The position numbers were made by a program, and so were the translations under genes. A stretch of DNA of 9,086 bases from Clostridia bacterium (GTDB lineage: Bacteria; Bacillota_A; Clostridia; Oscillospirales; Acutalibacteraceae). Within the stretch, counting starts at the first letter, position 1, and every line of letters starts with the position of its first letter. Location of the stretch: assembly GCA_017529165.1 (NCBI GenBank), contig JAFXNY010000114.1, positions 1 through 9,086 of the forward strand, written 5' to 3'. Under the pieces are notes generated by a model. It did not search any database. It was not told where the DNA came from and saw only the letters and a program-made list of their open reading frames with translations. Below are positions 138-5,497 of the stretch, one piece after another.

Positions 138-178
138 TGAAGCGGCAAGGCTTAGCCTTGCCGCTTCATTTTATATTT
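138..178 (+). terminator. Strong 15-bp hairpin with T-rich tail at the end of cysK
   Basis: TGAAGCGGCAAGGCT (138-152) is the perfect reverse complement of AGCCTTGCCGCTTCA (154-168), separated by one base, which would leave a practical loop of 3-5 bases. On the plus strand the stem runs into TTTTATATTT, a typical intrinsic terminator layout. On the minus strand it begins 3 bases after the cysK stop but is followed by GCCTGTC rather than T residues. It may therefore terminate a plus-strand transcript entering from the left, while also capping the 3' end of the pot-cysK message. Confidence 0.6.
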
Positions 179-1100
179 CAAAAAGCTCTGTAGAAAGATA
201 TCTGTCTCCGGTATCGGGAAGCAAAACAACTATTGTTTTGCCTGCGTTTTCTTTTTTCTCTGCAATACTGATTGCCGCAGAGAGCGCCGCTCCCGATGAA
301 ATACCTACAAGCACGCCCTCTCTTTTAGCTATAAGCCTTGCCGCACTGAACGCATCAAAATCAGAAACCTTAAAGACTTCATCGTAAACAGAAGTATCCA
401 ACACATCGGGTACAAAGCCTGCGCCTATGCCCTGAAACTTATGTGCGCCCGGCTTTCCGCCTGACAACACAGGCGAGTCCTCCGGCTCTACGGCAATTAT
501 TTTTACTTCGGGTTTTTTAGATTTTAGATATTTACCTGCACCGGTTATTGTGCCGCCTGTTCCTACACCTGCTACAAATATATCAACCTTACCGTCTGTA
601 TCAGAAAAAATCTCGGGGCCTGTTGTTTCAAAATGTGCCTGAGGGTTAGCAGGGTTTACAAATTGGCCGGCAATAATTGAACCGGGTATTTCGTTTTTAA
701 GCTCTTCTGCTTTTTCGATAGCCCCACGCATACCCTTGCTACCGTCAGTAAGTACAAGCTCGGCGCCGTAAGCTCTCATTAAAGCTCTTCGCTCTTTAGA
801 CATACTATCCGGCATAACTATGATTACCTTGTAACCCCGTGTTGCCGCAACCATTGAAAGCCCTATGCCAGTGTTGCCGGATGTGGGCTCAATGATAGTA
901 GCACCCATTTTTAATTTGCCGGACTGCTCGGCTTCATTTATCATAGCCAGAGCTACCCTGTCTTTTACAGAGCCGGCAGGGTTTAAGTATTCGAGCTTTG
1001 CAAGTATTTTAGCTTTAAGAAAAAACTGCTTTTCGATATTTGTAAGCTCTAAAAGCGGAGTCTCCCCTATAAGTTCATCCGCAGATTTATAAATATGCAT
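171..1100 (-). CDS. cysK: Cysteine synthase A (O-acetylserine sulfhydrylase)
   Basis: A PLP-dependent cytosolic enzyme that makes L-cysteine from O-acetyl-L-serine and sulfide. The 309-residue length is normal for the family. NPAGSVKDR places the PLP-binding lysine at K46. TSGNTG (73-78) is the substrate-binding loop and GVGTGGTITG (178-187) the phosphate-binding glycine loop. KPGAHKFQGIGAGFVP and the SSGAA segment near the C-terminus are also typical of CysK, more so than of CysM. The ATG at 1098-1100 is preceded by an AAGGTGGGG ribosome site. The gene begins 15 bases after the potD stop and on the same strand, so it is very probably the last gene of the pot operon. That is an unusual partner for a polyamine importer. 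It has no separate promoter that I can see. Family assignment is firm; co-transcription is inferred from spacing. Confidence 0.95.
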   Translation of the reverse strand: MHIYKSADELIGETPLLELTNIEKQFFLKAKILAKLEYLNPAGSVKDRVALAMINEAEQSGKLKMGATIIEPTSGNTGIGLSMVAATRGYKVIIVMPDSMSKERRALMRAYGAELVLTDGSKGMRGAIEKAEELKNEIPGSIIAGQFVNPANPQAHFETTGPEIFSDTDGKVDIFVAGVGTGGTITGAGKYLKSKKPEVKIIAVEPEDSPVLSGGKPGAHKFQGIGAGFVPDVLDTSVYDEVFKVSDFDAFSAARLIAKREGVLVGISSGAALSAAISIAEKKENAGKTIVVLLPDTGDRYLSTELFEI

Positions 1101-1115
1101 ATGTTCCCCACCTTA

Positions 1116-2219
1116 CTAATAAAGTTTAAGGTCTATCCATAGATTTTCATAATAGCTCCTGATTTCGGGGTCAATATCGTGATAATACTGCGTGGGCGGA
1201 GCGTCTTTCGTGTCGGGATAAAGCGTTTTATTTTTATAAAAAGTATAATCTTCATTTTCCACAACCGCACGGTTTGGAGACGCATAGCATATATACTCGG
1301 CATTTGCGAGCGCTACTTCGGGCTCTAAAAGAAAATCAATATAAAGCATTGCCTCGTTATAGTGCTTAACCGATTTTGGCACGCATATAGCATCAACAAC
1401 TATATTTGTACCCTCTTTAGGATAAAAGAACTTCAAATCCTCATTATTATCGAGCATTGTAAGATAATCGCAGGCTTAGTACGGCCCTATTGCGGCTTCG
1501 CCGGTTTCCATTTTACCGTAGATTTCATCCATAACATAAGATTGCAAAACATTCTTGCCCTTTTTAAGAAGCTCTGCGGCGGCATCCCAGTGGGCTTTGT
1601 TCGTGGTGTTTACATCCTGACCTAAAATCATCTGCGCCGTCATAAAGCCATCCCGTGGGTTGCTGAAATTAAGGGACATATCACGGTATTTTTCATCCCA
1701 CAGTGTTTTCCAAGAATGCTCCGGCTCACCTATCAATGTCGGGTTATAAATAATGCCCACCATACCCACATTATAAGCCACGCTGTACTCGTTGTTTTTA
1801 TCGTAAAAAAGGCCTTTGTAATCATCATAAATGTATCCGTAATTCTGAAGTTTGGATACATCAATCTTTTTGAGCATATCCTCGTTTTTAAGACGCTCAA
1901 TCATATAATCGGAGGGTATGATTATATCGTACGAAACACCGCCGCTTTTAAGCTGTGAATACATACTTTCGTTGCTCTCAAATGTAGAATAGTTTACATG
2001 AATACCCGTAAGCCGTTCAAACTCACGGTTTACATCCATCATATCATCCGAGCCATCCGATATATATTCGCCCCAATTATACACATTAAGCTGGCTACCT
2101 GCAAACTCTCTTGTATATTTGCCTTTAAGCTCAATATCCATATACTCGTAACCGCAACCCGCAAACAAACAGCATATAAGATTAGCGCAAAGGAAAATCA
2201 CACTAAGCTTTTTTAGCAT
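1116..2219 (-). pseudogene. potD: Spermidine/putrescine-binding lipoprotein, interrupted by one in-frame stop
   Basis: The extracellular solute-binding component of the PotABCD importer. The 367-codon frame starts with a lipoprotein signal peptide: positive MLKK, a hydrophobic stretch, then FAGC with the lipidated cysteine at 22. YNWGEYIS (47-54), SYDIIIPSDYMIERL (96-110) and, later, YPKEGTN...VDAICVPK are family landmarks. Codon 248 is TAA (1476-1478). Reading through it gives ...EAAIGPY-stop-ACDYLTM..., where relatives typically read like YYAGDYLTM. A tyrosine codon therefore seems to have become TAA, and the cysteine two codons later (TGC) sits where glycine (GGC) is expected. The rest of the frame is open to a TAG at 1116. 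The product would lack about one third of the protein, including part of the C-terminal lobe. Restart at the Met at 1457 is unlikely because no ribosome site precedes it. The ATG at 2219 has a good AAGGAGG (2227-2233) and overlaps the end of potC by 17 bases. A sequencing error remains possible. Confidence 0.85.
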
Positions 2220-3843: not shown

Positions 3844-4965
3844 TTATTCCTCCTCTTGTATATTTTCAGAGAGGTGGTCCATTTCTTCGCTGTATGAGCT
3901 ATAATCACCGTAAAGTCCCGAATACTGCGACTTTTTCATAATATGAATGGCATCAGGCTCGATATAAAGACCTACATTATCGCCCACAAAACATTCATCG
4001 GTAGTTTGTATCATCCACTTAAAGCCGCCGATATCAACAATAATTTCATAATGAACGCCTAAAAAATCAACCGATGTAACGGTGCCTGTGAGCATTCCCT
4101 TATCCGTAGCCACAATATCTACATCCTCAGGGCGCACAACAACATCGACTGCCTCGTCTTTCTCAAAACCTTTATCGAGACAATCAAATGTATGCCCTGA
4201 AAAGTTGACAACAAAGTCTTTCTTCATTATGCCGTCTAATATATTGGACTCGCCTATAAAATCAGCCACAAAGGCGTTTTTAGGTTCGTTATATATATCC
4301 TGCGGAGTGCCTACCTGCTGAATCTTACCCTTATCCATAACTACAACCCTATCGGACATAGTAAGGGCTTCTTCCTGGTCGTGAGTTACAAATATAAATG
4401 TAATGCCGAGCTTCCTTTGAATATTGCGAAGCTCTTTTTGCATATCCTTACGGAGTTTAAGGTCAAGCGCCGCAAGCGGTTCATCAAGCAGTAGTACCCT
4501 CGGCTTGTTTGCAATAGCACGGGCAATAGCTACACGCTGTTGCTGACCGCCTGAAAGGGTGGCAATTCTGCGTTTTTCAAAGCCCTCGAGATTTACAAGC
4601 GAAAGCATTTCGGCAACCGTTTTTTTAATCTCTTCTTCGGGCAGTTTTTTAACCCTTAAACCGAAAGCCACATTCTCGAACACATTAAGGTGTTCAAAAA
4701 GCGCATAACGCTGAAAAATGGTGTTAACCTGCCTCTTATAAGCCGGAACACCATTAAATCTCTTACCCTCAAAGATAACATCTCCGCTATCGGGATCAAG
4801 AAAGCCGGCGATAAGCCTTAAAGTAGTGGTCTTTCCGCAACCCGAGGCGCCAAGAAGGGTTATAAACTCCTTGTCTTTGATTTCGAGATTTAGTCCGTCT
4901 AAAACCTGCTCCCCGTCAAACGCCACGCAAATGTCTTTGAGTTCTACAATATTTTCTTTTGCCAT
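3844..4965 (-). CDS. potA: Spermidine/putrescine ABC transporter ATP-binding protein PotA
   Basis: The cytoplasmic ATPase that powers the PotBC permease, 373 residues, typical for PotA. The nucleotide-binding domain is complete: Walker [10 protein letters not shown] (39-47), Q-loop at Q85 in [15 protein letters not shown], signature LSGGQQQR (137-144), Walker B VLLLDEP (157-163) with E162 as catalytic base, D-loop ALD and switch histidine H195 in [10 protein letters not shown]-terminal TOBE-type regulatory domain follows (roughly 240-350, including VVVRPEDV). All catalytic residues are present, so the ATPase itself looks functional even though potD is interrupted. It is the first gene of the operon. 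Its AAAGGGGG ribosome site (4974-4981) lies 8 bases upstream of the ATG and is part of a predicted leader-RNA stem, so its translation may be controlled by RNA structure. Confidence 0.96.
3849..3855 (-). promoter_or_regulatory. Ribosome-binding site that fixes the potB start at GTG
   Basis: GAGGAGG on the minus strand is formed by the glutamate codons at the very end of potA and lies 9 bases before the GTG at 3837-3839. It supports the GTG rather than the upstream ATG at 3908, and implies coupled translation of potA and potB. Confidence 0.8.
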
Positions 4966-4973
4966 TTAAGCAT

Positions 4974-5091
4974 CCCCCTTTGTCACACTCTAAGTGTCGA
5001 CAGGTAATCTGACGGGAGCCAAAACCCGTCATATTCTTCTTTACCCTGCGCGATACTTGCCGTCCGCCGTTTTGTATGCCCTGACAAAGGG
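4974..5091 (-). ncRNA. Candidate structured leader RNA / riboswitch upstream of potA
   Basis: Read as minus-strand RNA, CCCUUUGUCA (5091-5082) pairs perfectly with UGACAAAGGG (4985-4976), closing about 96 bases. Inside are a short AUAC/GUAU stem (5077-5074 with 5056-5053), a stem CAG(G)GUAA/UUACCUG (5048-5041 with 5007-5001, one bulged base) carrying the 7-bp hairpin UGACGGG/CCCGUCA (5031-5025 with 5016-5010), and a small CACU-type hairpin (4996-4986). The 3' arm of the closing stem contains most of the potA ribosome-binding site, so this fold would block translation. I recognise no established riboswitch consensus. The complementarities are seen directly; folding and regulation are inferred. 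An origin as several chance inverted repeats cannot be excluded without comparing homologues. Confidence 0.5.
4981..5002 (-). promoter_or_regulatory. Alternative hairpin competing with the SD-sequestering stem
   Basis: TGTCACACT (4981-4989) and AGTGTCGACA (4993-5002) are inverted copies apart from one extra base, with loop CTA. In RNA this hairpin uses the bases at 4981-4985 that also belong to the closing stem of the leader, so the two folds exclude each other. When it forms, AAGGGGG before potA would be free. It could instead be a DNA operator. Confidence 0.4.
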
Positions 5092-5161
5092 TTTTTCGCA
5101 ATCAAAATATGACTACGGCATACATTAGTATCAGACAGCCATTTCTACACAGATGCATAAA

Positions 5162-5439
5162 GGCTTACACTCGATAAGGACAAAATGGTTTTGGAGGACA
5201 AAATTTTCAGCCCGTTCTTGCCTCGTCACCCCGAATACGCCAGTATAACGGCGTTCCTCGTCTTCAACGGAGCAAAAATTTTGCTCCTACAAAACTGCTT
5301 CGCACCCGAAATCGAACTGTTTTTCGCAGATTTTGCGTATGAGCGAAGCAGGAATACTGTCGTATTTCAATGAGCGAAGGCGTGAAAGAACGGCAAAACA
5401 GCCGATTGTCGGGCGTTTTGTCCTTATCGAGTGTAAGCC
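5162..5439. mobile_element. MITE-like foldback element, 278 bp, 24-bp perfect terminal inverted repeats
   Basis: The ends are exact inverted copies (5162-5185 and 5416-5439), beginning GGCTTACACTCGATAAGGAC. The interior is also an imperfect palindrome: AATACGCCAGTAT (5234-5246) matches ATACTGTCGTATT on the right arm, CCGTTCTT on the left matches AAGAACGG on the right, CTGCTTCGC (5295-5303) pairs with GCGAAGCAG (5343-5351), and GGAGCAAAA-A-TTTTGCTCC (5269-5287) is a perfect local hairpin. TA dinucleotides lie two bases outside each end (5158-5159, 5442-5443), which could be a target-site duplication, though that is weak. No transposase is present; a 62-codon frame inside shows no recognisable domain. 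It resembles a non-autonomous miniature element or a large structured RNA repeat. Copies elsewhere in the genome would settle this. Confidence 0.7.
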
Positions 5440-5468: not shown

Positions 5469-5497
5469 AATATACGGCAAAATACCCGTTATGTCAA
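5469..5497 (-). promoter_or_regulatory. Sigma-A-type promoter directed at potA
   Basis: On the minus strand TTGACA (5497-5492) is followed after exactly 17 bases by TATATT (5474-5469), a perfect -35 and a 5/6 -10. Transcription would start near 5462 and run through the foldback element into the potA leader, giving a leader of about 500 bases. No comparable promoter was found between the element and potA. It is divergent from the promoter of the XRE gene. Confidence 0.7.

Follow-up and report, generated by a model that had tools for sequence, protein, structure and literature searches.

The DNA analysed here, a stretch of 9,086 nt from a Clostridia bacterium (contig JAFXNY010000114.1) that is referred to as the window in its entirety, carries a potABCD operon for polyamine import, and the question raised by this locus is whether the region ahead of potA encodes an RNA that controls translation of the importer and, if so, what such an RNA might sense. 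The preliminary description had proposed, for positions 4974-5091, a candidate novel leader RNA of the translational type that hides the potA ribosome-binding site. The gene under control, potA (3844-4965; NF043075.1, 556.9 bits at a cut-off of 550), lies on the minus strand, so that the leader is transcribed as its reverse complement; all features described below are located on the minus strand, with coordinates of the window. The leader reaches about 65 nt beyond 4974-5091, to about 5160: the complete RNA runs from 5160 to 4963 and ends with the potA start codon (4963-4965). R1, a covariance model for which the window was not used, matched the window leader with 95.4 bits (E 8.2e-22). Folding of 4963-5160 yielded -64.6 kcal/mol (z -3.66), with none of 200 shuffled sequences folding as well. 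The transcribed strand of 4960-5100 gave a z-score of -2.33 (4/200 shuffles), which is weaker than that of the plus strand of 4974-5091 (z -3.34; 1/200 shuffles). Folding of 39 leaders, from a sample of 40 in which one exceeded the size that could be folded, resulted in a mean z-score of -3.6 and values below -2 for 35 of them. We have very little doubt that the locus encodes a conserved leader RNA which can conceal the ribosome site of potA.

The relatives of this leader were collected by using the window PotA as query; the best 80 of 570 confirmed relatives (loci L001-L080) are titled mostly as metagenome-assembled genomes of rumen and gut origin, and a conserved leader was seen upstream of many of these potA genes. 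Model R1 was built from 14 such leaders, the window being excluded. Applied to the window and the 80 loci, it gave 34 matches at E ≤ 1 and 31 (the window and 30 loci) at E ≤ 0.01; L022 and L056 matched weakly, and a match in L074 (E 0.48) was located away from potA. Whole genomes of 18 potA loci contained a match at E ≤ 0.1 in 17 cases, one of them with a second weak match, and G018 had none. In the family of G005, 86 of 398 genomes matched at E ≤ 0.01. The order contributed 14 of 394 genomes at E ≤ 0.001 (12 already known), and R2, a broader model made from 35 leaders including that of the window, found 9 of 391 genomes of the class (5 already known) and 1 of 299 of the phylum, namely G005; these searches ran under stricter filtering, at which weak matches are lost. 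The RNA has its centre in one family, and only a few matches were added by the wider samples; 20 stretches of viral contigs that were examined contained no relative.

As L001-L080 had been found via PotA, only matches reached through the models count for the association with the gene. All 84 of these precede potA: 76 in alignment A3, the two partial hits L167 and L168, and the six new hits L178-L183. Alignment A3 comprises 99 leaders (22 obtained via PotA, the window, and the 76 independent ones), each followed by a PotA homologue, with a short PotA match in L107 (42 residues) and L155 (143 residues); L002, L003, L006, L016, L018, L022, L033, L047, L056, L079, L098, L167 and L168 are left out of it, L098 representing the same genome as L028, and most of them were inspected separately. 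Other short inverted repeats do occur within the same 700 bases, as one would want for a chance repeat without function, yet this reading is vanishingly improbable against the conservation, the covariation, the exclusive association with potA and the z-scores of folding; a chance origin was rejected on the R1 matches and the covariation.

The core of the RNA is formed by three nested helices: PC (GCUGUCUG, 5132-5139, with CGGACGGC, 5059-5066; mostly 7-8 bp), PD (UGUAUGCC, 5117-5124, with GGCAUACA, 5073-5080) and the hairpin PE (GUAGUC ... GAUUGC, 5098-5116). Covariation was assessed with our own R-scape-style script, not R-scape itself, on 99 sequences and 172 columns, against a null of 60 alignments simulated on a FastTree tree with Fitch-mapped substitutions. 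Eleven column pairs scored above every null pair; all of them fall within PC, PD or PE and show 84-99% standard pairs. The next-ranked pair, 77-151 (E 0.017), has standard pairs in only 4% and is read as the pseudoknot strands (see below) aligned out of register. In alignment A4, 95.2% of the cells pair versus 75.0% after shuffling, 20 of 24 pairs show changes on both sides, and pairing reaches at most 49.1% when partners are slid; A3 and A4 were fitted to R1, so that counts obtained there lean towards the structure. The unfitted MAFFT alignment A2 gave 87.4% versus 74.2%, two-sided changes in 14 of 20 pairs and at most 59.6% upon sliding. When alignments were dispensed with, the result for PC in 93 of the 99 leaders was weak: a median of 20% of mixed pairs match the cognate pairing and 33 of 93 leaders are at or below 10%, to which the choice of PB-type pairing (see below) in several leaders contributes. 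PD fared better, with 56 of 93 leaders at or below 10%. The same structure thus precedes the same gene in many genomes, with covariation in its helices, as is characteristic of a conserved structured cis-regulatory RNA. The preliminary description had tied its proposal to conserved and covarying paired segments in related leaders and to a folding energy better than that of shuffled sequence; both were found, the latter for the window leader and for the 39 sampled leaders.

How this core is connected to the ribosome site became evident from the 10-bp complementarity between CCCTTTGTCA (4976-4985) and TGACAAAGGG (5082-5091), which is indeed perfect. In the transcript, the 5' strand of this helix (PK) is the anti-Shine-Dalgarno sequence CCCUUUGUCA (5082-5091) and its 3' strand is UGACAAAGGG (4976-4985), which contains most of the ribosome site. 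The pairing had been taken for a plain outer stem that includes most of the Shine-Dalgarno (SD) run AAAGGGGG (4974-4981, read directly). Coverage of the run stands, and the plain outer stem was rejected: the 5' strand lies inside PD (5117-5124/5073-5080), which makes the helix a pseudoknot in the comparative model. Downstream of PE, the unpaired GAAAAA (5092-5097), a near-invariant A run in alignment A1, leads into the 5' strand of PK, a CCCUUUGxxx whose partner, xxxCAAAGGG at the SD site, is located past PD and PC. The triplets beside the invariant CUUUG/CAAAG change together: CGG/CCG occurs in 72, UCA/UGA in 9 and UUC/GAA in 8 of 97 leaders, all three bases being paired in 90 of 97, while 2 of the 99 leaders lack the anchor. 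A second way of anchoring the pseudoknot, which sets a few anchors at wrong places and whose shuffles ignore relatedness, resulted in 554 of 588 pairings formed versus at most 507 in 1000 shuffles. The anti-SD strand inside PD, by pairing with the SD strand, links the conserved domain to an expression platform.

The remainder of the ribosome site is engaged by a helix at the 5' end of the RNA, PA, whose 5' strand GCAUCU (5151-5156) is found as GCATC in 88 of 99 leaders and is paired in the minimum-energy fold of the window leader. Its 3' strand GGAUGC (4970-4975) follows directly 3' of the PK strand and overlaps the last two G residues of the SD run, which is thus common to PK and PA. Unlike PC, PD, PE and the pseudoknot, PA is mostly invariant, so that its pairing rests on conservation and on the flanking bases. 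The latter gave a cognate pairing of 2.43 versus 1.39 upon permutation (highest of 2000 permutations, which ignore relatedness, 1.97). Among the 88 GCATC leaders, 64 combine CCC or CUC with five Gs and 18 combine UCC with four Gs, these 18 being largely one group of similar leaders; CCC with four Gs was seen once (L139), and L101 has an A in the G run opposite the U of UCC. Nine of the 11 leaders that lack GCATC keep GATGC. L106 and L108 lack GCATC and carry GUUGU where GAUGC is expected; inspection by eye revealed no clear other 5' partner in them. The unguided minimum-energy fold of the window leader contains PA, a PB-type stem, PC, PD and PE; as the program does not handle pseudoknots, the PK strand appears there in a small CCU/AGG hairpin. 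On average, 90% of the SD-site bases are paired in the minimum-energy folds of the 39 leaders. Of the fold first proposed, the PK helix persists; the pseudoknot topology, PC, PD, PE and the 5'-end helix were absent from it.

The PF region (4994-5056; GUAUCGCGCAG, 5046-5056, ... CUGUCGACAC, 4994-5003) is kept in close relatives, and its lower part is the bulged stem reported earlier (CAGGGUAA/UUACCUG on the transcript), which is likewise retained in them. The apical 7-bp hairpin TGACGGG/CCCGTCA (5010-5031), pointed out at the same time, is real in the window and specific to it, being part of an insertion missing in close relatives such as L001 and L005, for which reason it was rejected as part of the core. 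A further segment, AAGTGTCG/CGATACTT, belongs to a fold of the plus strand and relies on G-U pairs that become A-C in the transcript. GCGCAG of PF has another possible partner in the 5' CUGUGU; this pairing, PB, is present in the minimum-energy fold of the window and may compete with PF. The small hairpin P4 (CACUUAGAGUG, 4986-4996) has similar counterparts in groups 1 and 2 of A1 by eye. Leaders of L002 (4873-5003) and L003 (4869-5003) are without the PF/P4 part and keep PD, PE, the PK strands and GGAUGC. In L006 (4545-5003), two partial R2 matches (4545-4712 and 4835-5003) suggest that an insertion interrupts the leader. L033, L047, L056, L079, L142, L162, L164, L165 and L178 share a divergent form of the leader in which UUCGCGCAGAGCUG...CGGCUAUACGCGG precedes the SD strand, with slight differences in L056, L142 and L178; as GCATCTGTG is located far upstream in some of these loci, the leader may exceed 300 nt there.

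A promoter for the leader is predicted from the letters only at 5469-5497 (TTGACA at 5492-5497, a 17-nt spacer, TATATT at 5469-5474), and the matching place in L001 reads TTGACT-17-TATATT. Between this predicted promoter and the leader, the window carries a 278-bp element (5162-5439) with 24-bp perfect terminal inverted repeats, which looks like a MITE-type insertion in the 5' untranslated region of potA; no exact copy of its end repeat was present in 183 loci. Inspection by eye of the region between leader and potA in the window revealed no intrinsic terminator, i.e. no hairpin followed by a T run. Attenuation through a translated short leader peptide, as mentioned for speFL of E. coli in PMC10319736, was considered as well. 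A closed ATG-started reading frame of at least 8 codons is present in 46 of 99 leaders, as such a mechanism would demand, but 33 of 99 have no closed ATG frame at all (ATG starts only) and no shared peptide was discernible by eye; a conserved ATG-started upstream frame was rejected on these grounds, and we regard this type of control as very improbable.

The RNA could not be assigned to a known class. Scanning of 4227 Rfam families, which we take to have included the potC, guanidine and ykkC classes and the SAM clan, gave no match over the window leader at E values up to 5, no gathering-score match in seven leader-bearing loci and none over the leader in 18 divergent relatives. Membership in the scanned families was hence rejected, in agreement with the novelty proposed for the RNA. 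For potC RNA, a candidate leader RNA of polyamine transport genes, no Rfam match was obtained in the window or the 18 relatives, and the same holds for SAM-I-like sequence or structure, the type of the spermidine riboswitch, in the window leader and these relatives. Among the literature matches listed, no title deals with this RNA; it may have been described earlier under another name, for example in a survey from 2017 that reportedly comprised 224 candidate RNAs. In the main text of PMC11109978 and PMC6429828, a search for pot and polyamine terms gave no occurrence.

There is one RNA with a bearing on the question of the ligand, the ldcC RNA (SpF59, RF02440). It occupies the same place before potA in sister loci as the new leader does here, but is described by a 54-position model that has no match to the new leader: the RF02440 covariance model matched none of the leader-bearing loci L001, L004, L010, L013, L023, L033 and L049. 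Among 27 scanned loci, ldcC RNA was detected before potA in 15 (L057-L062, L064, L065, L068-L071, L073, L075 and L078), at a distance of about 300-450 nt, and none of these 15 is an R1 match. It was not detected in L063, L066, L067, L072 and L074, and scanned loci with neither RNA include L020, L030, L055 and L072. Many potA loci are without the new leader and, where scanned, without ldcC RNA. Loci such as L026-L032 and L040-L046 have no leader according to R1 and no obvious ldcC RNA by eye; several loci of this type share GAGAGGGGYUGCAUAAUUG ahead of a TTG start. At potA, ldcC RNA is followed by a terminator-like hairpin and T run (by eye), which points to control of transcription rather than translation. 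Three of 39 genomes (G069, G320 and G398) combine both RNAs, with the new RNA preceding potA and ldcC RNA (loci L184, L185 and L186) located on the same strand about 2.5 kb before speE and 5-6 kb before nspC. The reading frame adjoining ldcC RNA codes for S-adenosylmethionine decarboxylase (speD) in L184 and L186, both of which were examined. The presence of ldcC RNA at synthesis genes and of the new RNA at uptake genes, together with ldcC RNA at sister potA loci, is circumstantial evidence for a shared polyamine signal.

The validated spermidine riboswitch, according to PMC10853860, is a SAM-I variant found before speE, speB and ldcC; both this RNA and the new one are leaders of polyamine genes for which feedback OFF control is proposed, but the former has the four-stem SAM-I architecture and acts by transcription termination (PMC10853860), whereas the latter is built differently, precedes potA, conceals the ribosome site and has no Rfam match where scanned. 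With pseudoknot riboswitches of the preQ1-II, SAM-II and SAM-V type the new RNA shares an SD sequence serving as one pseudoknot strand and an A-rich strand nearby; it differs in being longer (mostly about 155-220 nt), in the 5'-end helix PA that closes over the rest of the ribosome site, in the genes it precedes and in the lack of an Rfam match. A conserved leader before potABCD was also reported for the Pasteurellaceae Haemophilus somnus and Pasteurella multocida, where PMC2965389 describes this ABC-leader as found as a premature-terminator element. The potE motif, reported with the odc1 motif in PMC8632094, is like the new RNA a candidate leader of a polyamine transport gene, but that paper places it in Veillonella, about 200 nt from its gene and with no obvious expression platform. 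In Borrelia potB, a response to spermidine resides within the coding region (PMC10319736).

As for the transporter itself, the window PotA scores above the spermidine/putrescine cut-off of NCBIfam, and matches to pot families below the cut-off were obtained for PotB, PotC and the split PotD. In the window, an in-frame stop divides potD (1116-2219, minus strand) into two reading frames, where L001 has one. For PotD of both L001 and L049, the closest entries are 4gl0 (Lmo0810) and 4eqb, the latter known to bind spermidine/putrescine. L001 PotD retains only in part the positions that we equate with the acidic residues contacting polyamine in E. coli PotD, so that the imported compound could be another amine. 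The gene following potD in the window (171-1100, minus strand) and in L001 (8863-9795) is cysK, and in L049 it is not. This neighbourhood and the incomplete likeness to E. coli PotD would also suit a riboswitch of identical architecture with a non-polyamine ligand, such as a sulfur metabolite, a nucleotide or an ion. We consider it unlikely, and still worth keeping in mind, since cysK is not beside potD in the leader-bearing L049, all 84 independent matches precede potA, and ldcC RNA takes the same place in sister potA loci.

We favour, with somewhat better than even confidence, a polyamine-sensing riboswitch that acts as a translational OFF switch of the potABCD import operon. Abundance of the polyamine imported by the operon (spermidine or a relative) would favour the folded state, with PD, PE, the A-rich strand and the pseudoknot as the putative binding site. 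Once PK and PA have formed, a double-stranded segment would reach from ahead of the SD run almost to the start codon, and ribosomes could not start on potA. Under scarcity, the pseudoknot and PA would open and the importer would be made; candidate pairings of the ON state are the local CCU/AGG hairpin and an exchange of strands between PB and PF. A trans-acting protein or small RNA that binds the leader, the RNA itself not being the sensor, appears rather improbable: leader RNAs of such size can be protein targets, but the fold alone buries the ribosome site, and the core that is conserved is of considerable size and in part unpaired. Polyamines bind any RNA via charge, so that they might influence folding in a general manner and need no specific pocket. 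More broadly, the leader might be a passive structure, a thermometer or a fold sensitive to cations in general, any of which would reduce potA translation with no particular ligand involved. The pairing of the SD site in minimum-energy folds and the general stabilization of RNA by polyamines and Mg2+ would suit such a fold, but conserved unpaired sequence such as GAAAAA exceeds what mere sequestration needs, and we assign it a small probability only.

The chances are about even that the RNA represents a new class of polyamine riboswitch that is unrelated in structure to the SAM-I-derived one, controls import instead of synthesis and represses by wrapping the ribosome site with two abutting helices. 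The authors of PMC10853860 judged earlier evidence for polyamine riboswitches unsatisfying and expected further classes. As the new RNA stands where sister lineages have ldcC RNA, two unrelated RNAs would, if this is true, play the same sensing role at one and the same gene. For these bacteria, import may be the sole source, as the spermidine synthase SpeE was not found in 33 of 39 leader-bearing genomes; it is present in 6, and NspC above the cut-off in 3. These 39 genomes were picked from the leader-bearing set and are mostly drafts, so that a missing SpeE is not conclusive, and they include G018, which has no R1 match and whose locus L056 matches R2. The RNA is common in one Clostridia family (86 of 398 genomes), with titled loci mostly from rumen and gut metagenome-assembled genomes, and the three genomes that possess both RNAs provide a natural pair for asking whether ldcC RNA and the new RNA sense one ligand.
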